DNA from: Massilia mucilaginosa
GTDB lineage: Bacteria; Pseudomonadota; Gammaproteobacteria; Burkholderiales; Burkholderiaceae_D
Assembly: GCF_011682145.1 (NCBI RefSeq)
Contig: NZ_WHJH01000043.1
Location: 1-61,842 of the forward strand
Direction: 5' to 3'
DNA: 61,842 nucleotides
The notes under the pieces are model-generated. The model had not been told where the DNA came from. It did not search any database and worked only from the letters and a program-made list of their open reading frames with translations. The translations under genes and the position numbers were made by a program. Each line of letters opens with the position of its first letter. The stretch's first letter is position 1. Below are positions 3,937 to 37,151 of the stretch, one piece after another.

Positions 3937-6012
3937 TCATGCGGCTTTATCGACAGTTTGAGTGTCCTGCTGGCACAGCGGCAGGGTGATTCTGAACGTG
4001 GTGCCTTGCGGCGGCGTGCTGCTGACCGCCAGGTTGCCGCCGAGCTCATGAATGTATTCACGGCTCTCGAAAGCGCCAATGCCCATGCCGGCCGATTTGG
4101 TCGATTCGAACGGTTTGTACAGGCGCTCGCGGATGAATTCTTCGCTCATGCCTTCGCCGGTGTCGCGGATCTCGATGATAACCGAATCGTCCGCGCGGCT
4201 GAGCGTGATTGCCACCTGGCCTTCCTTGGGCGTGGCTTCGATGGCGTTCTGGATCAGGTGGCCCACCACCCGTTCCAGCCGTTCCCAGTCGGCCACCACG
4301 CGCAGGCGCGCTTCGCTAATCGTCAGCAGCGGACGCGGCTCGAAGGCGGCCTTGTTGGCCACCGCCTGGACCAGCAGTTTTTCGATCGAGAGCGGGGCCG
4401 GGCGCTCCTGCGATGCGCTGCGGCTGAGCTTTTGCAGCATCAGGCGCATTTTTTGCACCGACAGGGTCACGGTTTCGAGCATGTCGCGCTGGAATTCGGG
4501 GTTGTCCTTGTGTTTTTCGGCATTTGGAATCAGCAAGCCCAGTTGCGACACCAGGTTTTTCAAATCGTGCACCACGAAAGTCGACATGCGGTTGAACGAT
4601 TCGAACTGGCGCGCCAGCATCAGGGCGCTGGCCGCTTCGTGCTGGGCCAGGTAGCTGGCGGCTTGGCTGCCGGCAATCTTGAGCAGGTCGATCACTTCCC
4701 AGTTCAGGGTAATGGCGCTGCGCGGCTGCAACAGCAGCATGAAACCGAACAGGCGGCCCTGCAGCATCAGCGGCACCACCAGGCGTCCGCGCGGAAATTT
4801 ATTCATCCACTCGGGCAGCACCAGGCCTTCGTACTTGTCCGGGTCCTTGGCGAATTCCTGCAGGTCGACTACCCACTGGCGCGATTCCAGAAAGCGGCAG
4901 AAGGCCGACTCGTCCGGCTCGGACGGGGCCAGTTCCGGCATGTGCCAGTTGGCCACCGGTTCGCACAGGCCCGCTTCGCGCCGGATCCACAGCATGCCGC
5001 CGGAACTTTCGACCAGCTCGCCAACCGCTTGCAGGGTGCGCTCGCCCAGGTTGGGACCGGCTTCGGACAGGGTGCGGGTAAAGCGCAGCCATTCTTCGCG
5101 GTAGTCGTAGTTGTAGCTGTAGAAATGCTTGCTGATGAACACTTTCAGCCAGGAGCGGAAGGTGCCCGAGAACAAAATGCCGGCCAGTAGCACCAGGGCG
5201 CCGAACAGGAAGGCCATCTGCATCAGCGAGCCCCACTGGCCGCCGAAGTAGCGCAAGTAATACCCGGCCGCGCCCATGGCCAGCAGGTAGGCGGCCGAGC
5301 CGAACAGGGCCGCCGAATGGAACAGCAGGCGGCGCGAGACCGCGATGTGCGACGACCACGACGCGCTGCGCGCCACCGACACCGCGATCAGGGGCGCGGT
5401 CAGGGCGTTGACCACGCCGCGCGCGGACCAGATTTCGGGATTGATCTGGCGCATCAGCAGGGCGTTACTGTACAGATAAAAATCGAAGACGAAGATGCCG
5501 CCGATGCCGAGGCAGGCGAACTTGATGGCCCAGCGTTCCTGCACCGGCTTGTTGCGGTACAACTGTTCGACCAGCAGCATGCCGAGCACGGCCATGCCGA
5601 TGCGCGCCATCACGCCCACGATGCCGCTTTGCTGGCCCAGCACGGCCGGCATGAATTCGGACATGATCTTGTCGCCCAGCACCAGCAGGTAGAGCAGGGC
5701 GATGGCCGGCAGGGCCGGGGTGCGGCGCAGCTGGCGCCAGCTGGTGCCTTCGAAGTGGCCCAGCAGCGACAGCAGCACCACGGTCCAGGCGCCGTTGCGC
5801 GCCACTTCCAGCAGTTCGCCGGCCCAGATGTGGGCCAGCACGCCCCAGGCCTGGGCCGCCAGCGCGCCGCCCCACAGCATGGTCAGCGCGCAGGCGCAGG
5901 CCAGCACGGACGCATGCTGGCGGCTGCGCCAGCGCGTCAGCAGGACGACGCCGAGCAGCGCAAACGCGAGCGCGGCGGTTGAATAGCTCATGGTGGCGAT
6001 GTTGCTCAGCAT
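3937..6012 (-). CDS. prsK: PrsK, PEP-CTERM/exosortase-system histidine kinase
   Basis: A 691-residue membrane histidine kinase. The N-terminal 300 residues hold about eight membrane helices; next comes a GAF-like sensory domain (about 320-460), then the phosphoacceptor box FVVHDLKNLVSQ with its His, and a C-terminal HATPase with the N, G1 and G2 boxes (LIQNAIEA, IRDTGEGMS, GMGIGAFESREY). The order is that of the PrsK family, partner of PrsR. Start is ATG at 6012; an ATG at 5991 (MSYSTAAL) is equally possible. It lies in the leftward exopolysaccharide cluster, downstream of the sugar transferase with about 100 bases between. No exosortase or PEP-CTERM protein is in this window. Confidence 0.92.
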   Translation of the reverse strand: MLSNIATMSYSTAALAFALLGVVLLTRWRSRQHASVLACACALTMLWGGALAAQAWGVLAHIWAGELLEVARNGAWTVVLLSLLGHFEGTSWRQLRRTPALPAIALLYLLVLGDKIMSEFMPAVLGQQSGIVGVMARIGMAVLGMLLVEQLYRNKPVQERWAIKFACLGIGGIFVFDFYLYSNALLMRQINPEIWSARGVVNALTAPLIAVSVARSASWSSHIAVSRRLLFHSAALFGSAAYLLAMGAAGYYLRYFGGQWGSLMQMAFLFGALVLLAGILFSGTFRSWLKVFISKHFYSYNYDYREEWLRFTRTLSEAGPNLGERTLQAVGELVESSGGMLWIRREAGLCEPVANWHMPELAPSEPDESAFCRFLESRQWVVDLQEFAKDPDKYEGLVLPEWMNKFPRGRLVVPLMLQGRLFGFMLLLQPRSAITLNWEVIDLLKIAGSQAASYLAQHEAASALMLARQFESFNRMSTFVVHDLKNLVSQLGLLIPNAEKHKDNPEFQRDMLETVTLSVQKMRLMLQKLSRSASQERPAPLSIEKLLVQAVANKAAFEPRPLLTISEARLRVVADWERLERVVGHLIQNAIEATPKEGQVAITLSRADDSVIIEIRDTGEGMSEEFIRERLYKPFESTKSAGMGIGAFESREYIHELGGNLAVSSTPPQGTTFRITLPLCQQDTQTVDKAA

Positions 6013-6118
6013 TCCGGTGCGCTTGTCTTTCCGGTGTGGATCACGGTGTGGAGTGAAGCGCCGGGCGAGGCCGGCGCTGGCGCCCGCCCCAAGGGGGGAC
6101 CCAAGGTGCAGGCAGCGG

Positions 6119-7525
6119 TCAACGCCCGTGACTGCCCATGACCACCTTGAGGGTGTCGATCAGGATCAGCAGGTCGAGGAACAGGCTGTTGTTTTTCACA
6201 TAATACAGATCATACTGGAGCTTTTGCACCGCGTCATCGACAGATGCGCCATAACCGTAACGGACCTGGGCCCAGCCGGTGATGCCGGGCTTGATGCTGT
6301 GGCGTACGTTGTAGTAGGGAACCTGCTCGTTCAACTGTTCGACGAAGTACGGCCGCTCCGGGCGCGGACCGACGAAACTCATCTCGCCCTTGAACACGTT
6401 GAGGATCTGCGGCAACTCGTCGATGCGGCATTTGCGGATGAAGTTGCCCACGCGCGTGACGCGCGGATCGTTCTGGGCCGCCCACTGCGGCTTGCCGCCC
6501 TTTTCGGCGTCGTTGTACATGCTGCGGAACTTGAGCACCTTGAAGGTCTGGCCATTCGTGCCGACCCGTTCCTGCTGGTAAAAGATCGGGGCGCGGTCTT
6601 CGATGAAGATCGCCAGCGCGGTCAGGAACATCACCGGCAGGGATACCAGCAGCAAGGTGCCGCTGACCACCAGGTCGAAGGTGCGCTTGACGAAAATGCG
6701 GATGAAGCTCTGGTCGAAGCCGCCGCCGAACACCAGCCAGCTCGGCTGCAGTGAATCGACCCGGATCTGGCTCGTTTCGCGCTCGAAGAAGGTGGCGGCG
6801 TCGATCACTTTGACGCCGTACAGTTTGCATTCGAGCAAATCCTTGATCGGGAAAGCGCCGCCGCGGCGGTTTTCCACCGAGACCACGATTTCTTCGACAT
6901 CATGGCGGCGCGCCAGGGTCAGCAGCGATTCGTCACCGCGCACTTCCAGCAGGGACGAGGCCGGCACACGCGACACTTCGGACGGCATGGCGATGAAGCC
7001 GGCGATCTCGTAGCGGTGGTAAACCTGGTCGCGGTTGGCCAGTTCGCGGCATTCGTTGGCCAGGGCGCCGCCGCCGACGAACAGGATGCGCGACTCGAAC
7101 TTGCGCGCTTCCGATGTCTTGAGGAAAATCGTGCGCGCCACAAAGATGCCGGCGGCCCCGATCATGAACACCAGCAGCATGATGCCGCGCCCGAAATACA
7201 GGTTCGGCACCACGTAGAACAGCAATGTCAGGATGCAAAAGCCCATCGCGAAGGAGGGCAGCAGCTTCTGGAAGAAGGGATTGCGCAAGCCTTCGGTCAG
7301 GTTCAGCTGGTACATGCCGAGCGCGCTCATGCTGAACACGATGGCGATGGCGTAGGCGATCGCCGAAATCAGGAAATTATCCAGATGCGGCGGCAGCGAG
7401 GTCTTGCCGTCTTCGTAGACGCGCAGCGCCGCGCCCGCGTACGCCGAACCGATCAGGATCAGCACCTCGACAAACAGCAGCACGAACACAACCCGTGAGA
7501 CATAGTGATTAGAAATCCGAAGCAT
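6119..7525 (-). CDS. PEP-CTERM-associated polyprenyl-phosphate sugar-1-phosphate transferase
   Basis: A 468-residue inner-membrane enzyme that starts exopolysaccharide repeat-unit assembly by moving a sugar-1-phosphate from a UDP-sugar to undecaprenyl phosphate. The N-terminus has four membrane helices, the middle is a CoA-binding-like cytoplasmic domain, and the C-terminus is the bacterial sugar transferase domain with KVLKFRSM, RKCRIDELPQ, SFVGPRPERP and the conserved PGITGWAQVRYGYG. The match is to the subfamily found beside prsK/prsR and exosortase genes (the TIGR03013 type). GGTGG lies just before the ATG. It sits in one leftward run with the two UDP-sugar enzymes upstream. Confidence 0.93.
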   Translation of the reverse strand: MLRISNHYVSRVVFVLLFVEVLILIGSAYAGAALRVYEDGKTSLPPHLDNFLISAIAYAIAIVFSMSALGMYQLNLTEGLRNPFFQKLLPSFAMGFCILTLLFYVVPNLYFGRGIMLLVFMIGAAGIFVARTIFLKTSEARKFESRILFVGGGALANECRELANRDQVYHRYEIAGFIAMPSEVSRVPASSLLEVRGDESLLTLARRHDVEEIVVSVENRRGGAFPIKDLLECKLYGVKVIDAATFFERETSQIRVDSLQPSWLVFGGGFDQSFIRIFVKRTFDLVVSGTLLLVSLPVMFLTALAIFIEDRAPIFYQQERVGTNGQTFKVLKFRSMYNDAEKGGKPQWAAQNDPRVTRVGNFIRKCRIDELPQILNVFKGEMSFVGPRPERPYFVEQLNEQVPYYNVRHSIKPGITGWAQVRYGYGASVDDAVQKLQYDLYYVKNNSLFLDLLILIDTLKVVMGSHGR

Positions 7526-7592
7526 TTTTCCACCCCTGGACAGGATAAGTGGCGTTGCGTGGCGGGCATCAAGGCGCCCGGCCGCAACGCTT

Positions 7593-8654
<1,062 letters not shown>

Positions 8655-28889: not shown

Positions 28890-29900
28890 ATGAATCTCAA
28901 GAGCCTGGCCCGTACGCTCGGGATTTCGAAGACCACCGTCAGCCGTGCCCTGAACGGCTACCCCGAAGTCAATGTCCACACCCGCGAACGCGTGCTGGCC
29001 GCCGCCAAGGAAGCCGGCTACGAAGCCAATCCGATGGCGCGCAGCCTCGCGGTGGGCCGCACCAACGTCTTCGGCATCATCTATCCGCTGCTGCCGAGCG
29101 ACCTGGGCGATCCGATGTTCCTGGGCGTGGTGGGCGGCATGTCGGCCGCGCTCGAAAAGAGCAAGATGAACCTGATCATCGCGCCGGTCTCGCCGCAAAA
29201 CGAGCTGCCCTCGTACGAGCAGATGGTGCGCGGGCGCCGCGTCGATGGGCTGGTGGTCAGCCGCACCCTGGTGCACGACGAGCGCATTGCGTACCTGGTG
29301 AAGAAGGGCTTTCCGTTCGTGGCGCACGGCCGCACGGAACTCAAGCAGCCCTATGCCTGGTTCGACTACGACAACGAGGCCGGTATCGGTCTGGCCTGCG
29401 CGCACCTGATCGGGCATGGCCACCGCCGCATCGCGCTGGTGAGCGCACCGCTCGAACTCAATTTTGCGTGCCAGCGCAAGAACAGCTTCATCGCCTGCAT
29501 GACGGCGGCGGGTCTGGCCGTCGATCCGCGCCACCTGGTCGAGAACACGCTCGACCGGCGCACCGGCTACCAGGCCATGCAGGAGCTGCTGGCCTGTTCG
29601 CCGCGGCCGACCGCCGTCATCGTCGACAATCACCTCTCCGGCGTGGGCGCGGTGCGCGCGCTGCTCGATGCCGGTATCGAGATCGGCAAGGACATGTCGG
29701 TCATCGTCTGGGGCAGCATCGAAGATAGCCTGGTCGGATCGAACGTTACCACCATCGACCAGCCGGACCCCAACGAAGCGGGCGCCAAGATGACCGAGAT
29801 GCTCTCGGCGCTGGTGGCAGGCACGCCGCCGGCGCAGTTGCAGGTCCTGTGGCAGCCGGTGCTGCTGCCCGGCGCCACTGTGGGGCGCTGCATCGGCTGA
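28890..29900 (+). CDS. LacI-family regulator 2
   Basis: A 336-residue repressor with the helix-turn-helix at the very N-terminus (MNLKSLARTLGISKTTVSRALNGYPEV) and a sugar-binding core (FGIIYPLLPS, VDGLVVSRT, GLACAHLIGHGHRRIALVS, AVIVDNHLSGVGAVRALLDAG, TTIDQPDPNEAGAKM). It ends the sugar locus. With two LacI proteins and two operator classes nearby (the ATCGAT type and the CAAACCGGTTTG type), each probably owns one; which owns which cannot be told from the sequence. A small hairpin TGCGG-CAA-CCGCA lies at 29908-29920 after its stop. Confidence 0.9.
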   Translation: MNLKSLARTLGISKTTVSRALNGYPEVNVHTRERVLAAAKEAGYEANPMARSLAVGRTNVFGIIYPLLPSDLGDPMFLGVVGGMSAALEKSKMNLIIAPVSPQNELPSYEQMVRGRRVDGLVVSRTLVHDERIAYLVKKGFPFVAHGRTELKQPYAWFDYDNEAGIGLACAHLIGHGHRRIALVSAPLELNFACQRKNSFIACMTAAGLAVDPRHLVENTLDRRTGYQAMQELLACSPRPTAVIVDNHLSGVGAVRALLDAGIEIGKDMSVIVWGSIEDSLVGSNVTTIDQPDPNEAGAKMTEMLSALVAGTPPAQLQVLWQPVLLPGATVGRCIG

Positions 29901-29920
29901 CTTGCGGTGCGGCAACCGCA

Positions 29921-29949
29921 TTGACGTTCATGCAAAATTGCCTTACTCT
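29921..29949 (+). promoter_or_regulatory. Candidate promoter of the retron
   Basis: TTGACG (29921-29926) and TACTCT (29944-29949) are 17 bases apart. The expected start, 6-8 bases after the -10, is at about 29956, exactly the first base of the a1 repeat. The -10 box is poor (3 of 6), so support comes from placement. Confidence 0.5.
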
Positions 29950-29955
29950 CTACGC

Positions 29956-30119
29956 GGGCGGATCCTTCAAGCCGGCCTGTTCTTGCCTGGTGCAGGGACA
30001 TGCCTCTGCGGGGCTACCCCGTGGGAACTATATTGCTGTGCAATTCACCGCATGAGCCGCCGTGCGCTGCCGCGCACTTAAGCTCAAGCTTCACGAGACT
30101 GGTTGAAGGCTCTCCGCCC
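29956..30119 (+). ncRNA. Retron msr-msd RNA (predicted)
   Basis: About 164 bases directly upstream of the reverse transcriptase. The ends pair as an a1/a2 stem: GGGCGGA (29956-29962) with TCCGCCC (30113-30119), then CCTTCAA (29964-29970) with TTGAAGG (30103-30109), with a small internal loop between. The base after a1 is G29971 in the context AAGC, fitting the branching guanosine. Three short hairpins with 3-base loops follow: CCTG-GTG-CAGG (29986-29996), CGGGG-CTA-CCCCG (30009-30021) and ATTGC-TGT-GCAAT (30032-30044), typical of msr. A longer hairpin, GAGC/GCTC enclosing GTGCGC-TGCC-GCGCAC (30054-30085), fits the msd. This is a by-eye fold. Confidence 0.75.
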
Positions 30120-30137
30120 CCTCAAAGTTATCCAAGT

Positions 30138-31478
30138 ATGATTCCCAAAGACGCCGTCGCCCTGGCGCTCGCCGACACCATGCTGGCGCGCGACGCAACG
30201 CTCGCCGGCCTGATCGCCAGCGCGACCTGGGCGTTCGACCATCCGTGGCCGTGGATACCGGCGCTGTGCGAAGAAATCCACGCGCGCACCGCCGCACACT
30301 TTTACTACTTCAGCCGCGATGAGCTGGCGCGGATCATTTTCGAGCTGGACGTGTTTCATGCCGCCTGGGACGGCGAGGGACCCGCGCCACAGCTCCAACG
30401 CTACTGCCTCGACCTGCCCGTGGTTCCGCCTGCGCCCGACTGGCTGGCCGCGCTCGCGCTGCCGGCGCTGCCGTCCGTGGGCGAGCTGGCGCGGTGGCTG
30501 GGCCTGCGCCCCGACGAACTTGGCTGGTTCGCCGGCCAGTGGCGCAAGGACCCGATGCCGGCCGCGCAACTGGAGCACTACCACTATCGCTGGGTGCCCA
30601 AGCGCAGCGGCGGCGTGCGCCTGATCGAAATTCCCAAGCCGCGCCTGCGCGCCATGCAGGCGATCATTCTGCGCGAGCTGCTCGACCGCGTGCCCGCGCA
30701 TCCGGCCGCGCATGGCTTCCGGCGCGGGCATTCCTGCGTCACCCATGCGGCCCTGCACACAGGGCAGCGCGTGGTGATCCGCATGGACCTCAAGGATTTC
30801 TTTCCGAGCATTCCGGCCTCGCGCATTCACGCGCTGTTCGCCAAACTCGGTTACTCGCAGACGGTAGCCGGCGTGCTGGCGCGCCTGTGCGTGAACCGCG
30901 TGCCGGCCGGCGTGCTGCGCGAACCGGCTGGCGGCAATGCGCTCACCTGGACCCAGCGCCAGGCACTGCGCGCGCCGCACCTGCCGCAGGGCTCCCCGTG
31001 TTCGCCGGCACTGGCCAACGCCTGCGCCTGGCGGCTCGACGTACGCCTGGAGACGCTGGCGCAATTGCTCGGCGCGCGCTACAGCCGCTATGCGGACGAC
31101 CTGGTGTTGTCGGGCGGGCGCGAACTGGAACGGGCAATGGACCGCGTCCACGCGCAGGTCGGCGCCATCGCCCTCGAAGAAGGCTTCGCCATCAACACGC
31201 GCAAGACGCGCGTGATGCGCGCCGGCGTGCGCCAGCAAGTCACCGGCATCGTGGTCAACCGCCATCCCAACATCGCGCGCGACGAGTTCGACGTGCTCAA
31301 GGCGACCTTGACCAACTGCGTGCGCCACGGCCCGCAAGGGCAGGACCGCGAGAACCGGCCGGATTTTCGCGCCTGGCTGGCAGGGAAGGTGGCGTATGTC
31401 ACCATGGTCAATCCCCAGCGCGGTGGGCGCTTGCAGCGCCTGTTCGACGCCATCGCCTGGCCGCATCCTCCGTTGTAA
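30138..31478 (+). CDS. ret: Retron-type reverse transcriptase
   Basis: A 446-residue RNA-directed DNA polymerase. The first 150 residues are a helical extension without a recognised motif, a feature shared with the myxobacterial-type retron enzymes. The polymerase part has YRWVPKRSGGVRLIEIPKP, HGFRRGHSCVTHA, MDLKDFFPSIP (catalytic Asp near 217), LPQGSPCSPALAN and YADDLVLSG (Tyr318, Asp320-321). The retron thumb motif VTG is at 368-370 (QQVTGIVVNRHP). Start is the ATG at 30138, 18 bases after a2; the longer frame upstream would run through the RNA. It should copy the msd part of the RNA into multicopy single-stranded DNA, usually for phage defence. Confidence 0.93.
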   Translation: MIPKDAVALALADTMLARDATLAGLIASATWAFDHPWPWIPALCEEIHARTAAHFYYFSRDELARIIFELDVFHAAWDGEGPAPQLQRYCLDLPVVPPAPDWLAALALPALPSVGELARWLGLRPDELGWFAGQWRKDPMPAAQLEHYHYRWVPKRSGGVRLIEIPKPRLRAMQAIILRELLDRVPAHPAAHGFRRGHSCVTHAALHTGQRVVIRMDLKDFFPSIPASRIHALFAKLGYSQTVAGVLARLCVNRVPAGVLREPAGGNALTWTQRQALRAPHLPQGSPCSPALANACAWRLDVRLETLAQLLGARYSRYADDLVLSGGRELERAMDRVHAQVGAIALEEGFAINTRKTRVMRAGVRQQVTGIVVNRHPNIARDEFDVLKATLTNCVRHGPQGQDRENRPDFRAWLAGKVAYVTMVNPQRGGRLQRLFDAIAWPHPPL

Positions 31479-31486
31479 GGCAGGAT

Positions 31487-31508
31487 CGACACAGCTTGGC
31501 TGCTGTCG
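31487..31508 (+). other. Stem-loop between retron and membrane-protein genes
   Basis: CGACA-CAGC pairs with GCTG-TGTCG (one bulged C) over a 3-base loop. No T-run follows, so transcription could read on into the next genes at a reduced level. Confidence 0.4.
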
Positions 31509-31551
31509 CAGCGTGGACTACAGACCAATTCCCCTTTTCGCAGAGCGCATA

Positions 31552-32082
31552 ATGACACCGACTTCCCCCAATCCCTATTCCGCGCCCACCGCATCCTTCG
31601 ATGGCGTGCAGACCGGACGATGCCGGCGCGAAGGCCCCATTCTGGTCGCTTCGACGACGGAACACCTGCCGCCGCGCTGCGTGAAGTGCAACGCCCCCGC
31701 CGCGATGGACAAGCCGCGCACCTTCGAGTGGCACCATCCGGGCTGGTATCTGCTGGTTCCGCTGGTGGTGTATGTGATCGTGGGCCGCTTCGTGCGCAAG
31801 AAGGCGACGTTGGTGCTGGGCCTGTGCGACCAGCATCGCCGCCGCCGCTTGTATCTGTCGCTGGCGTCGCTCGCCGTGTTTTTCTCGGGCTTGGCCGGAC
31901 TGTATCTGTCCGCCCGGTCGGGTAACTCCTTGCTGTGGTTGCTGTCTTGCCTGGTGATCCTGGCCAGCCTGCTGCTGCGCATCGCCGCCATGCGCGTCCT
32001 GCGGCCGGTATTCATCGACCGGCACGACATCCGCCTGACAGGCTGCGGCCCCGCGTTTCTCGATTCGCTCCCGGGCCGATGA
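31552..32082 (+). CDS. Membrane protein with CxxC motif, paralogue A
   Basis: A 176-residue protein. It starts with MTPTSPNPYSAPTASF, then a Cys pair in LPPRCVKCNAPA, then EWHHPGWYLLVPLVVYVIVGRFVRKK (helix 1), LGLCDQHRRRR, helices 2 and 3, and a soluble tail with LTGCGPAFLDSLP. This family is widespread as a protein of unknown function; the CxxC pair may bind metal. It is 73 bases after the retron polymerase. The next gene is its paralogue, overlapping by ATGA. The ribosome binding site is weak. Confidence 0.8.
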   Translation: MTPTSPNPYSAPTASFDGVQTGRCRREGPILVASTTEHLPPRCVKCNAPAAMDKPRTFEWHHPGWYLLVPLVVYVIVGRFVRKKATLVLGLCDQHRRRRLYLSLASLAVFFSGLAGLYLSARSGNSLLWLLSCLVILASLLLRIAAMRVLRPVFIDRHDIRLTGCGPAFLDSLPGR

Positions 32083-32651
32083 GCAAAACGCCCGCCACTT
32101 TCAATCCGTATGCACCACCGAAAGCCGCCTTCGCGCCCGGGACCAGCATACCCAGCGCGCCCGACGCCGGAGCATGCTGGCGTGAGGACGATATCCTGAT
32201 CGCTCCTGTGGATGCGCATCTGCCGCCGCGCTGCGTCAAGTGCAATCGGCCGGCCACCATGGACAGTCCGCGTGCCTATCTGTGGCATCATCCCGGCTGG
32301 TATGCCCTGATGCCCGTTCTCGTATACATGGTCGTCTGCCTGTTCGTCAGAAAACGGGCGGTGGTCGTGTTGGGGCTGTGCAGCGAACATCGCCGCCGGC
32401 GCCACAGGTTCTCGATCCTTGCGCATGCCGCTTGCCCGCTTGGCGCCATCGGACTGCTTGGCGCATGCGCACTGGGCAATTACTGGGCGATGCTGCCTGC
32501 CGGGGTGCTGCTGCTAATCGGTATCCAGTTCGCCACCGCCAGTGCGCGCCTGCTGGTGCCGGTGCGGATTACCAACCACCACATCCACCTGAAAGGATGC
32601 GCGCCCGGCTTTCTCGACTCGCTCCCCACGCTGGAACAACAAAGGACATAA
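32079..32651 (+). CDS. Membrane protein with CxxC motif, paralogue B
   Basis: A 190-residue paralogue of the gene before it, with the same plan: NPYAPPKAAF, LPPRCVKCNRPA, LWHHPGWYALMPVLVYMVVCLFVRKR, LGLCSEHRRRRH, two more helices, and LKGCAPGFLDSLP near the end. The ATG overlaps the stop of paralogue A, so they arose by tandem duplication and are co-translated. Divergence between them is large (many core residues but few loops are shared), so the duplication is old. Role unknown. Confidence 0.8.
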   Translation: MSKTPATFNPYAPPKAAFAPGTSIPSAPDAGACWREDDILIAPVDAHLPPRCVKCNRPATMDSPRAYLWHHPGWYALMPVLVYMVVCLFVRKRAVVVLGLCSEHRRRRHRFSILAHAACPLGAIGLLGACALGNYWAMLPAGVLLLIGIQFATASARLLVPVRITNHHIHLKGCAPGFLDSLPTLEQQRT

Positions 32652-33095
32652 GTGGAAGCCATTATCTTCGTTGGCCTGCAAGCCAGCGGCAAGTCGACCT
32701 ATTACAAGCAGCACTATTTCAATACCCATCTGCGCATCAGCAACGACCTGCTGAAAACCAGATACCGCGAGAAAAAGCTGCTGGAGATCTGCCTCGACAC
32801 CGACATGCCCTTCGTGGTCGACAACACCAATCCCACGCGCGAGGTGCGGGCGAAATACATCGACCTCCTCAAGGGCAGCAAGTTCAAGATTCGCTGCGTG
32901 TACTTCCGCATCGACCTGGAGCGCTCGCTGGCCTGGAACCGCAGCCGCAGCGGTGCCGCGCTGATCCCGGACGTGGGCATTTTCGACACCCACAGGCGCA
33001 TCGAGCTTCCCACCATGGCGGAAGGCTTCGACGCGATGCATTATGTCGATATCATCGACGACCAATTTATCGTAAAGGCATGGAATGAAATTTGA
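32652..33095 (+). CDS. Small P-loop kinase, polynucleotide-kinase-like
   Basis: A 147-residue AAA-type P-loop protein. Walker A is GLQASGKSTYYK (residues 7-18), the acidic motif is FVVDNTNPTREVRAKYIDLLK, and the lid has YFRIDLERSLAWNRSR. This is the layout of the kinase domain of polynucleotide kinase/phosphatases. It starts with GTG at 32652, immediately after the stop of paralogue B, with AAAGGA five bases before. The stop overlaps the Thg1-like gene by 11 bases, so the two are tightly coupled and likely act on the same nucleic acid ends. Confidence 0.82.
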   Translation: MEAIIFVGLQASGKSTYYKQHYFNTHLRISNDLLKTRYREKKLLEICLDTDMPFVVDNTNPTREVRAKYIDLLKGSKFKIRCVYFRIDLERSLAWNRSRSGAALIPDVGIFDTHRRIELPTMAEGFDAMHYVDIIDDQFIVKAWNEI

Positions 33096-33843
33096 CGAAC
33101 TCGACGCCATGATGCGCGCCCACGAAACCGTGACCGACCGCTACGTCGAACCGGGCGTGTACATGGTGGCGCGCATCGACGGCCGCAGCTTTACCAAACT
33201 GACCAAGGAAAAGGTCAGCTTCGAGGCGCCCTTCGACGTGCGCTTTCGCGACCTGATGATGGACACCACGCGCCATCTGATGAACTGCGGCTTCAAGGTC
33301 GTCTACGCCTACACCGAAAGCGACGAAATCTCGCTGCTGTTCGATCCGGATATCGATCTGTACGGGCGCAAGCTGCGCAAGTACACCTCGATCCTGGCGG
33401 GCGAGGCATCGGCCAAATTCAGCCTGATGCTGGGCGAGCTGGCGGCCTTCGATTGCCGCATTTGCGAGCTGCCGGACCACAAGACCGTGGTCGACTATTT
33501 CCGCTGGCGTAACGAGGACGCGCACCGCAATGGCCTGAACGCGCACTGCTACTGGATGTTGAGGAAAGAGGGCGTGGCCAAGGGCGCCGCGGCGGCGCAG
33601 ATCGAAGGCCGCGGCATCGAGGACAAGGTAGCGCTGCTGGCCAGCCGCGGCATCGATTTCCACACGCTGCCATCGTGGCAGTTGCGCGGCACCGGGTTTT
33701 ACTGGGTGGACGAGGAAAAGCGCGGCTACAACCCGAAAGAACAGGTGGAAGTCGTCTCTAGCAAGCGCGCGATCAAGACCGACTTCGATTTGCCGACAGG
33801 CGAGGCATACGCCGAATTCGTGCGGCGCATGCTTCCCCAGTGA
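33085..33843 (+). CDS. Thg1-like 3'-5' polymerase (tRNA-His guanylyltransferase family)
   Basis: A 252-residue enzyme of the reverse-direction nucleotidyltransferase family. The palm motif MVARIDGRSFTKLTKEK holds the first metal Asp. The second acidic pair is in YAYTESDEISLLF. Other family marks are RNEDAHRNGLNAHCYW and KGAAAAQIEG. True Thg1 adds G-1 to tRNA-His; bacterial relatives repair 5'-truncated tRNAs in a template-dependent way. Bacteria generally encode G-1 in the tRNA gene, so a repair role is the better guess here, helped by the overlapping kinase gene. It ends nine bases before the convergent icmF. Confidence 0.9.
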   Translation: MKFDELDAMMRAHETVTDRYVEPGVYMVARIDGRSFTKLTKEKVSFEAPFDVRFRDLMMDTTRHLMNCGFKVVYAYTESDEISLLFDPDIDLYGRKLRKYTSILAGEASAKFSLMLGELAAFDCRICELPDHKTVVDYFRWRNEDAHRNGLNAHCYWMLRKEGVAKGAAAAQIEGRGIEDKVALLASRGIDFHTLPSWQLRGTGFYWVDEEKRGYNPKEQVEVVSSKRAIKTDFDLPTGEAYAEFVRRMLPQ

Positions 33844-33851
33844 GAGCGTGA

Positions 33852-36800
33852 TTACATATTCCGGCGGTACTGCCCACCCACCTCGAACAGTGCCGTCGTA
33901 ATCTGCCCCAGCGAGCAAACGCGCACCGCTTCCATCAGCTTCTCGAACACGTTGGCATTGTCGATCGCGGCCTGCTGCAAGGCCGCCAGCACTTGCGGCG
34001 CCTGCTCGGCGTTACGCTTGTGGAAGTCGTCCAAACGCGTCAACTGCGACTGCTTCTCGTCGTCGGTGGAACGCGCCAGTTCGATCTTCTGCGGCGTGTC
34101 GTTGGCCTTCGGATTGCGGAAGGTGTTCACGCCGATGATCGGCAAGGTGCCGTCGTGCTTCTGGTGCTCGTACAGCATCGACTCTTCCTGGATCTTGCCG
34201 CGCTGGTAGCCGGTTTCCATCGCCCCGAGCACGCCGCCACGTTCGGCGATGCGTTCGAACTCCTGCAGTACCGCTTCTTCCACCAGGTCGGTCAGTTCTT
34301 CGATGATGAACGAACCCTGGTTCGGATTCTCGTTCTTGGCCAGGCCCCATTCGCGGTTGATGATCAACTGGATCGCCAGCGCGCGCCGTACCGATTCGTC
34401 GGTCGGCGTGGTGATCGCCTCGTCGTACGCATTCGTGTGCAGGCTGTTGCAGTTGTCGTAGATCGCAATCAGCGCCTGCAAAGTGGTGCGGATATCGTTG
34501 AAGTCGATCTCCTGTGCGTGCAGCGAGCGGCCCGAGGTCTGGATGTGGTACTTGAGCTTCTGGCTGCGGTCGTTCGCGCCGTACTTGTCGCGCATCGCCA
34601 CCGCCCACAGGCGGCGCGCCACGCGGCCCAGCACCGTGTATTCCGGGTCCATGCCGTTACTGAAGAAGAACGACAGGTTCGGCGCAAAATCGTCGATGTG
34701 CATGCCGCGCGCGAGGTACGCTTCGACGAACGTGAAGCCGTTCGAAAGCGTGAACGCCAGCTGCGAAATCGGGTTCGCGCCCGCTTCGGCGATGTGGTAG
34801 CCCGAGATCGACACCGAGTAGAAATTGCGCACCTGGTGGTGTACAAAATACTCCTGGATGTCGCCCATGACTTTCAGCGAAAACTCGGTCGAGAAGATGC
34901 AGGTGTTCTGGCCCTGGTCTTCTTTAAGAATGTCGGCCTGCACCGTGCCGCGCACGTTCTGCAGCACCCAGGCGCGGATTTTCGCGGCTTCGTCATCGGT
35001 CGGCTGGCGCTTGTTCTCGACCACGAACTTGTCGATCTGCTGGTCGATGGCGGTGTTCATGAACATCGCCAGGATGGTTGGCGCCGGGCCGTTGATCGTC
35101 ATCGACACCGACGTGCTCGGGCTGCACAGGTTAAAGCCGTCGTACAGCACCTTCATGTCGTCCAGGGTCGCGATCGACACGCCCGAGTTGCCGACCTTGC
35201 CGTAGATATCCGGGCGCAGCGCCGGGTCGGCGCCGTACAGGGTCACGGAATCGAACGCGGTCGACAGGCGCTTGGCGTCCATGCCTTCGGATACCAGCTT
35301 GAAGCGGCGGTTGGTGCGGAACGAATCGCCTTCGCCGGCGAACATGCGGGTCGGGTCTTCGCCTTCGCGCTTGAACGCGAACACGCCGGCCGTGAACGGG
35401 AAGGAGCCCGGCACGTTTTCCAGCATCAGGAAGCGCAGTACTTCGCCGTGGTCTTCGTAGCGCGGCAGCGCCACCTTGCGGATCTTGGTGCCCGACAGGG
35501 TATGGGCAATGAGGCGCGTGCGGATTTCCTTGTCGCGGATCTTGACCACGTAGTCGTCGCCCGCGTACGCGGCCTGCATTTCAGGCCACATCGCCAAGAG
35601 CTTCTTGGCGGTGGCGTCGAGCGCATTGTCGCGCTCCGTAATCAGTTCGTCGAAGTCCGCAGTCTTGGACGCCAGCGCCAGCATGCGTTTCGCTTCCGTC
35701 AGTTGCTGGCGTTCGCGTGCCAGCTTGACCTGTTTCGACGCGTTCTTGTGATAGCCGCGCACGGTGTCGGCGATTTCGGCCAGGTAGCGGGCGCGTGCCG
35801 GCGGCACGATCACATGCTTGCCGCTGGAATGGCGGATGTCCGCCTGCGGCAGCTTGCCCGGCGCGATGTGCAGGCCGAATTCGCCGAGTTTCGGCAGCAG
35901 GCCGTGGTACAGGGCGGTCACGCCATCGTCGTTGAAGCGCGATGCCTGGGTGCCGTACACCGGCATTTCTTCCGGGCGCTTGCTCCACATTTCGCGGTTG
36001 CGCTGGTACTGCTTGGCGACGTCGCGCAGGGCGTCGAGCGAGCCTTTGCGGTCGAATTTGTTAATCGCGATGAAGTCGGCGAAGTCCAGCATGTCGATTT
36101 TTTCGAGCTGGGAGGCGGCGCCGAATTCGGGTGTCATCACGTACATCGACACGTCCACGTGCGGCACGATGGCGGCGTCGCCCTGGCCGATGCCGGATGT
36201 TTCGACGATTACCAGGTCAAAACCGGCTACCTTGCAGGCGGCGATCACGTCGGGCAGCGCCTGCGAGATTTCGGAGCCGGCTTCGCGCGTGGCGAGCGAG
36301 CGCATAAATACACGAGACTGCGCGCCCGCCTGGCCGGTCCATGGGTTGATCGCGTTCATGCGAATCCGGTCGCCCAGCAGCGCGCCACCCGATTTGCGGC
36401 GCGACGGGTCGATCGAGATGATGGCGATGTTGAGCGCGTCGTTCTGGTCGAGGCGGATGCGGCGGATCAGTTCATCGGTCAGCGACGACTTGCCGGCGCC
36501 GCCGGTGCCGGTGATGCCCAGGGTCGGCACGTGCAGGCCTTCGGCCGCGTCCACGATGGCTTTGCGCAGTTCCGGCGTGGCCTTGTCGTTCTCCAGGGCG
36601 GTGATCAGCTGCGCCAGCGGGCGGTGGCGCGAGGCCACGTCGCCCTGCTGCAGGGGCGCCAAGGTGGTCGGGGAATAGGTGGACAGGTCGATGTCGCAGG
36701 TCTGGATCATCGACTGGATCATGCCCACGAGGCCCATGCGCTGGCCGTCTTCGGGGCTGAAGATGCGGGTCACGCCATAGGCATGCAGGTCCGCGATTTC

Positions 36801-37151
36801 GTCGGGGACGATCACGCCGCCGCCGCCGCCGAACACCTTGATGTGGGCGCCGCCGCGTTCGCGCAGCAGGTCGATCATGTACTTGAAGTATTCGACGTGG
36901 CCACCCTGGTAGCTGGAGATGGCGATGCCCTGCACGTCTTCGGCCAGGGCCGCGGTGACGACTTCGTCGACCGAGCGGTTGTGGCCGAGGTGGACCACTT
37001 CGACGCCGTTCGATTGCAAAATGCGGCGCATGATGTTGATCGATGCGTCGTGGCCGTCGAACAGCGAGGCGGCGGTAACGAAGCGGACTTTGTTGGCCAG
37101 TTTCGGCTGTTCGGGGGGAGTGAGTTTGGCGGCGGCAGTCAGGTCGTTCAT
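33852..37151 (-). CDS. icmF: Fused isobutyryl-CoA mutase IcmF
   Basis: A 1099-residue adenosylcobalamin enzyme that interconverts isobutyryl-CoA and butyryl-CoA. Three parts are fused: an N-terminal B12-binding domain ([13 protein letters not shown], with His34 as the cobalt ligand), a central G-protein chaperone ([17 protein letters not shown], then KFDRKGS), and a C-terminal acyl-CoA mutase barrel ([56 protein letters not shown]). Length is normal. A 20-bp palindrome 34 bases upstream suggests control by a regulator of branched-chain amino-acid degradation. Confidence 0.95.

Follow-up and report, generated by a model that had tools for sequence, protein, structure and literature searches.

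Retrons are currently viewed as tripartite defence systems, in which a complex of reverse transcriptase (RT) and msDNA senses the phage and a toxic partner acts. The RTs of retrons carry an NAxxH motif in region X. In the myxobacterial retrons Mx162, Sa163, Mx65 and Ne144, the RT has an extended N-terminus. One report (PMC6868368) describes vertical inheritance for Mx162 and Sa163, gives AGC as the published retron priming context and includes characterised retrons with variants of the VTG motif. Two PADLOC models, RT_other (PDLC02949) and RT_outgroup (PDLC03740), both of them models of the protein only, are the two best for the RT studied here, and they also rank first for its relatives from gammaproteobacteria, a planctomycete, Burkholderia and Actinomycetota. 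The literature that we searched describes no RNA or effector for either group, the founding classification (Mestre 2020) lying outside the search. The RT group is already modelled in PADLOC, while its RNA is one for which we found no description and whose novelty, with Mestre 2020 outside the search, is not established.

Here, we describe a locus of this kind in a 61,842-nucleotide stretch of Massilia mucilaginosa DNA (hereafter, the window; loci, genomes and contigs are cited by our own L, G and C numbers). The locus is very probably a real retron. We hold with good confidence that it is a genuine member of an unclassified lineage, in which the msr-msd RNA and the RT are the only constant parts across sites.

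The reverse transcriptase and its upstream RNA

The retron RNA and the RT gene lie on the forward strand between a gene for a LacI-family regulator (28890-29900) and a gene for a small membrane protein that begins at 31552. The RT gene (30138-31478) starts with an ATG 18 bases after the end of the RNA and encodes 446 aa in an open frame. RVT_1, at residues 153-362, is the only Pfam domain in the protein; YADD (residues 318-321) and VTG (residues 368-370) were recognised by eye. The PADLOC models RT_other, RT_outgroup and RT_XIII score 468, 441 and 338 bits, respectively, which by sequence places the RT in the unclassified RT_other/RT_outgroup set. The AlphaFold2 model of the RT (mean pLDDT 90.7, pTM 0.74) has the RT of retron Ec86 as its top PDB fold match (E 7e-21), and RTs of retrons are its closest solved matches. 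The initial reading of the protein as a retron-type RT with YADD and VTG is thus upheld by the PADLOC score and the Ec86 fold match. The closest RT, from M. rubra, is 92% identical, and dN/dS of the RT is 0.16-0.24 in six pairs.

The motifs vary within the lineage. YADD is invariant in 76 aligned proteins and reads YGDD in two actinobacterial RTs. VTG is not kept lineage-wide, being LAG in the Thiodiazotropha relatives, and the position of NAxxH reads HAALH in the window RT, a degenerate form of which only the H (207) is invariant. On the basis of HAALH and LAG, we regard the RT as an outlying retron member. The NAxxH mismatch was not treated as excluding, since characterised retrons also depart from the consensus motifs.

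Upstream of the RT gene, a 164-base RNA (29956-30119) is closed by an a1/a2 stem and contains four hairpins. The stem consists of two blocks of 7 bp: a1 (29956-29970) contributes GGGCGGA (29956-29962) and CCTTCAA (29964-29970), which pair with TCCGCCC (30113-30119) and TTGAAGG (30103-30109) of a2 (30103-30119), the latter being interrupted by a 3-base bulge. The msr (29972-30044) comprises three hairpins in the fold: the first (29974-30004) has an inner stem at 29978-30000 and a 5-base loop, and the second (30005-30025) and the third (30032-30044) have 3-base loops. The msd hairpin (30050-30089), the expected template of the msDNA hairpin, has an outer and an inner stem (helices 7 and 8) and a 4-base loop. 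Between it and a2 lies a conserved unpaired stretch, TTCACGAGACTGG (30090-30102), with the core A-C-N-A-G. The minimum free energy of the RNA is -79.5 kcal/mol, against a mean of -63.7 (sd 4.3) in 200 dinucleotide shuffles (z -3.69), none of which matched its stability. No Rfam family reached its gathering threshold in the RNA region.

A first-pass annotation of this DNA had drawn the 164-base fold and both 7-bp blocks with coordinates that proved correct to the base. It had also placed the candidate branching guanosine at 29971, directly after a1 in the context AAGC, and this position is borne out by the comparison: in an alignment of 42 sequences, the G and the A before it occur in 42/42 and the C after it in 36/42, and, beyond this alignment, L090, L091 and L137 depart from AGC. 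The longer msd-like hairpin of that annotation was confirmed by pairing in 96-97% of cells and by double changes. Its three short hairpins with 3-base loops need correction in part, as three hairpins are indeed drawn and two of the loops have 3 bases, while one has 5. The third of them (30032-30044) folds in the window and is weakly supported across relatives, with 72% of cells paired on the 42 sequences.

A promoter can be proposed at 29921-29949, with a -35 element TTGACG (29921-29926), a 17-nt spacer and a -10 element TACTCT (29944-29949); a generic sigma-70 scan called no promoter at 29921-29949. The pattern TTGA[CT]-N15-19-TANNNT precedes the RNA at close range in 26 of 41 loci, where base shuffles predict 0.125; most betaproteobacterial copies have such a promoter. 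It is missing from 15 loci, among them the whole set L055-L064 (10 loci) and the two actinobacterial loci; gammaproteobacterial, planctomycete and actinobacterial copies do not show the pattern. From the sequence, transcription is predicted to start at or near 29956, where a1 begins.

The unpaired ACNAG before a2 is almost constant (A 41, C 42, A 41 and G 41 of 42), and copying should begin there. By analogy with other retrons, transcription would proceed from a1, after which the a1/a2 stem would close; the RT would bind the msr hairpins, and the 2′-OH of G29971 would prime copying in the ACGAG before a2. The msd hairpin would then be copied while RNase H trims the template, and the product would be a branched, RT-bound msDNA of very roughly 50-60 nt. 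From the msr-msd RNA, we infer a retron that makes msDNA; the locus combines an RT of the retron kind with YADD and VTG, an upstream RNA closed by a1/a2 and a priming G, and departs from the retron pattern at NAxxH. It is highly improbable that the RNA instead acts like the guide or scaffold RNA of a DRT-type defence RT, without being copied into msDNA. Such a role would suit an outlying relative (RT_outgroup), and a DRT2 RT has been solved with its own non-coding RNA (9c0i); however, the retron RT model scores far above the models of group II maturase (62 bits) and Drt2 (33 bits), and a closing stem followed by an invariant G, with a separate hairpin before a2, is the plan of a retron.

Covariation of the RNA and its linkage to the RT

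We aligned 30 upstream regions from Oxalobacteraceae (Massilia, Duganella, Rugamonas, Pseudoduganella and other genomes of the family) using MAFFT, with structure ignored. In this alignment, 96.7% of the pair cells are paired, and 24 of the 50 pairs show double-sided compensation, against a mean of 8.2 in shuffled alignments and in none of 500 shuffles as many. When the partners were slid by 1-3 columns, pairing fell to 35-50%. RNAalifold recovered the structure from the same alignment except for the third short hairpin (helix 6), which has 81% of its cells paired. In the 42-sequence alignment, which was fitted to the model and hence is biased towards it and which includes the damaged G010 copy, L086, 38 of 50 pairs have changed on both sides and are still paired. 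Double changes affect 6/7 and 5/7 pairs of a1/a2 helices 1 and 2 and 5/7 and 6/6 pairs of msd helices 7 and 8, and the msr helices 3-5 have 93-99% of cells paired.

A covariance model built from the 30 Oxalobacteraceae sequences (R1) detected the RNA 5′ of the RT in all 10 distant relatives L055-L064 (E 2e-14 to 3e-10). Aligned alone, these relatives yielded the same a1/a2 stem, two msr hairpins and the msd, the third hairpin not being predicted by RNAalifold; the letters of a1/a2 are largely different in them although the plan is the same. The a1/a2 pairing upstream of homologous RTs, to which the first-pass annotation had tied its proposal, is therefore conserved and compensated in relatives, and the msr-msd RNA is almost certainly real. 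A chance fold beside a retron-like RT might be suspected because GC-rich sequence readily folds. The covariation counts refute it, the slid-partner controls and the co-occurrence of RNA and RT also speak against it, and we give it practically no weight.

The co-occurrence was examined in the genomes of 148 relatives. The RT search returned 20 genomes at E 1e-20, 15 of them with at least 339 bits and the next RT at 229 bits; R1 matched the RNA in 15 of the 148, which are exactly the 15 with RT scores of at least 339 bits. The genome of the window has one R1 match; as a separate observation, it also holds a second retron RT, of type XIII (L139, contig C400:563-2128; 617 bits, open frame of 655 aa). 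In G125, with an RT of 207 bits, the RNA lies at the right place (L017) and is found by a second model, R2, at E 4.3e-5 and by R1 at E 0.004; R1 thus misses the edge of the lineage. Among sequences outside its building set, R2 detected L090 (Tsukamurella, 2.8e-8), L137 (2.3e-7) and L017, all 5′ of the RT. It found no RNA in 20 loci with other RTs (L016, L018-L029, L065-L071), and the more distant RTs of L065-L071 have no RNA match with R1 either. The upstream region of L138 is nearly identical to that of L137, yet was unreported by R2 at E <= 1.

Among the loci L030-L054, the RNA stands 5′ of the RT in 24 of 25, and L050 begins within the RT gene. In L049 (M. rubra), about 3.3 kb with a gene identified by eye as a metal-transporting ATPase (4675-8001) separates the RNA from the RT. 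Both parts are damaged in G010, where RT residues 208-442 and a weak RNA match of 37 bits are left; this remnant (L114, contig C31) keeps the two parts adjoining.

Relatives of the RT occur in gammaproteobacteria, on plasmids of Burkholderia and actinobacteria, and in a planctomycete. The plasmid copies were matched by R1 in three Burkholderia records (E 8e-13 to 8e-11), in Dietzia (8e-6) and in Tsukamurella (0.024; R2 3e-8). Phage records gave no match spanning over 80% of the RT protein. Within the phylum, RT_outgroup is rare, with matches at E 1e-95 in 4 of 398 genomes.

Neighbouring genes and the search for a shared effector

We grouped 42 loci into 21 genomic sites by their common neighbours and compared the frames within 4.5 kb. 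Leaving aside the RT and the frames that cross the RNA, no frame within this distance is common to more than 4 of the 21 sites; the single frame that reaches 4 sites is at the RT end, and all others reach at most 3. Together with the Pfam result, this means that the linked or C-terminally fused effector of tripartite defence retrons is absent as a shared feature of the 21 sites, which strengthens the initial remark that the cognate effector was not obvious. The neighbours are mostly ordinary, and those on annotated plasmids include an SDR oxidoreductase, a D-alanyl-D-alanine carboxypeptidase and a mercury reductase. In an RT tree built without the three Burkholderia copies, copies from the same site also cluster in 8 of the 9 groups that have at least two loci and are covered by the tree, L032 and L053 having common neighbours without being sisters. 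This grouping suggests long retention in place with occasional moves.

In the window, the retron belongs to an island (29900-33850) with two small membrane proteins, an AAA_33 kinase and a Thg1-like protein. In G015, G011 and G006, the LacI gene directly precedes the next gene (33852-37151, by eye a mutase-type enzyme), and thus the segment 29.9-33.85 kb is an addition relative to these three genomes; G006 carries its retron elsewhere. The genes for the kinase and the Thg1-like protein (32652-33843) overlap as a pair, perhaps an RNA-repair module. A search of 100 genomes located Thg1 in 8, of which 6 have it at this site. The tandem small membrane proteins (31552-32651 in the window; also L030, L031, L049, L052, L112 and L113) have a CxxC pair and diverge fast (~30-86% identity), and their number beside the retron varies.

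The membrane proteins or the kinase-Thg1 pair could be a locally gained effector of a tripartite retron. The RT and these four genes share a strand, and adjacent genes overlap or are separated by no more than 73 bp. In 7 of 7 clade genomes, the RT is followed by the membrane proteins, inside the ~3.9-kb island that three relatives do not have at this place, and the Thiodiazotropha-type sites L059, L061 and L063 have a different local neighbour. However, a tblastn search of the other 20 sites (37 loci) turned up none of the four genes, and PADLOC gave no match for any of them. The membrane protein family occurs in G006 on a contig other than that of its retron and in G005 (48% complete), in which the search detected no RT of this kind. 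In stretches from G103 and G119 (L110, L111; the G119 Thg1 frame has two stops), the kinase-Thg1 pair is not accompanied by the RT, and G012, one of the seven clade genomes, has kept the retron but retains just a fragment of Thg1. We consider a locally gained effector improbable and the kinase and Thg1, in all likelihood, passengers.

At the three Thiodiazotropha-type sites, a gene that by eye resembles nucleotidyltransferases (family 32) lies near the retron, and L059 and L061 also have a HEPN-like gene (family 89, by eye) nearby. The nucleotidyltransferase-like gene is a possible local partner of these retrons.

Since no effector gene accompanies the RT across sites, the acting part may be in the RT itself, elsewhere in the genome or local, or absent. 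An effector that is encoded elsewhere and meets the RT-msDNA complex in trans would reconcile the missing common partner with the description of retrons as tripartite in PMC13405049. This is doubtful, as there is no candidate and a lineage present at 21 unrelated sites in several phyla carries none along. An acting part encoded elsewhere in the genome or only locally, taken together, is a lesser possibility, and the same can be said of a retron with no killing effector, whose msDNA has another role.

The N-terminal domain and comparison with known retrons

We find it plausible, though well short of certain, that the acting part is within the RT protein, most likely in its lineage-specific helical N-terminal domain. 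About 145 residues precede the RT fold. In the AlphaFold2 model, the helical domain takes up residues 1 to ~100 (30138-30437); residues 1-78 form five helices, and the mean pLDDT over residues 1-106 is 90.3. Against the PDB, the domain model had no fold match at E <= 0.001. When residues 1-150 were used as the query, 7999 candidates were scored and 12 proteins were returned, all RTs of 438-464 aa; as candidates were limited to 245-780 aa, free-standing copies of the domain would be missed.

The N-terminal part is 38-49% identical to that of the Duganella-type copies, versus ~59-63% for the full protein, and evolves faster than the whole RT. In six pairs, dN/dS is 0.15-0.48 for residues 1-100 and 0.12-0.21 for residues 146-446, indicating that both are under purifying selection. 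The domain is not whole in every copy, since in-frame stops sever the N-terminal region in L061 (inside the domain) and L064 (after the domain), where the RNA is kept. A two-part retron that occurs in at least three phyla, with the N-terminal domain, which has no recognised fold relative, doing the work of the effector and with one protein and one RNA making up both sensor and response, is a tentative proposal.

The first-pass annotation had likened the N-terminal extension, given as ~150 residues, to that of the myxobacterial retrons; the lengths are indeed similar, length being the one feature of the extension compared. According to PMC6868368, the myxobacterial priming context is CAGC or GAGC, versus AAGC in the window, and the msd of Mx162 has 162 nt, versus the roughly 50-60 estimated here. 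Type XIII, the next best model, also has an RT with a long N-terminal part. Its match is partial and not full-length, spanning positions 105-423 of the 469 in the profile and beginning at residue 103 of the RT, 130 bits below RT_other. In the loci compared for type XIII (L065, L067 and L068), the RT is preceded by a gene that these loci have in common (family 33, 546-610 aa) and that is absent at the window retron, and R1 and R2 find no RNA of the window's kind. Ec86 (Eco1), the best fold match, has an RT of ~320 aa and a separate effector, their complex having been solved (7v9x), whereas the window retron has an RT of 446 aa and no linked effector. Unlike most known retrons, this one has no effector gene travelling along. 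The lineage provides a compact pair of RT and RNA, with hosts among beta-, gamma- and actinobacteria, together with a covariance model that finds further members. As a widespread lineage of RNA and RT at unrelated sites with no travelling partner, it is a clean system for the role of msDNA when there is no linked partner to be held back.
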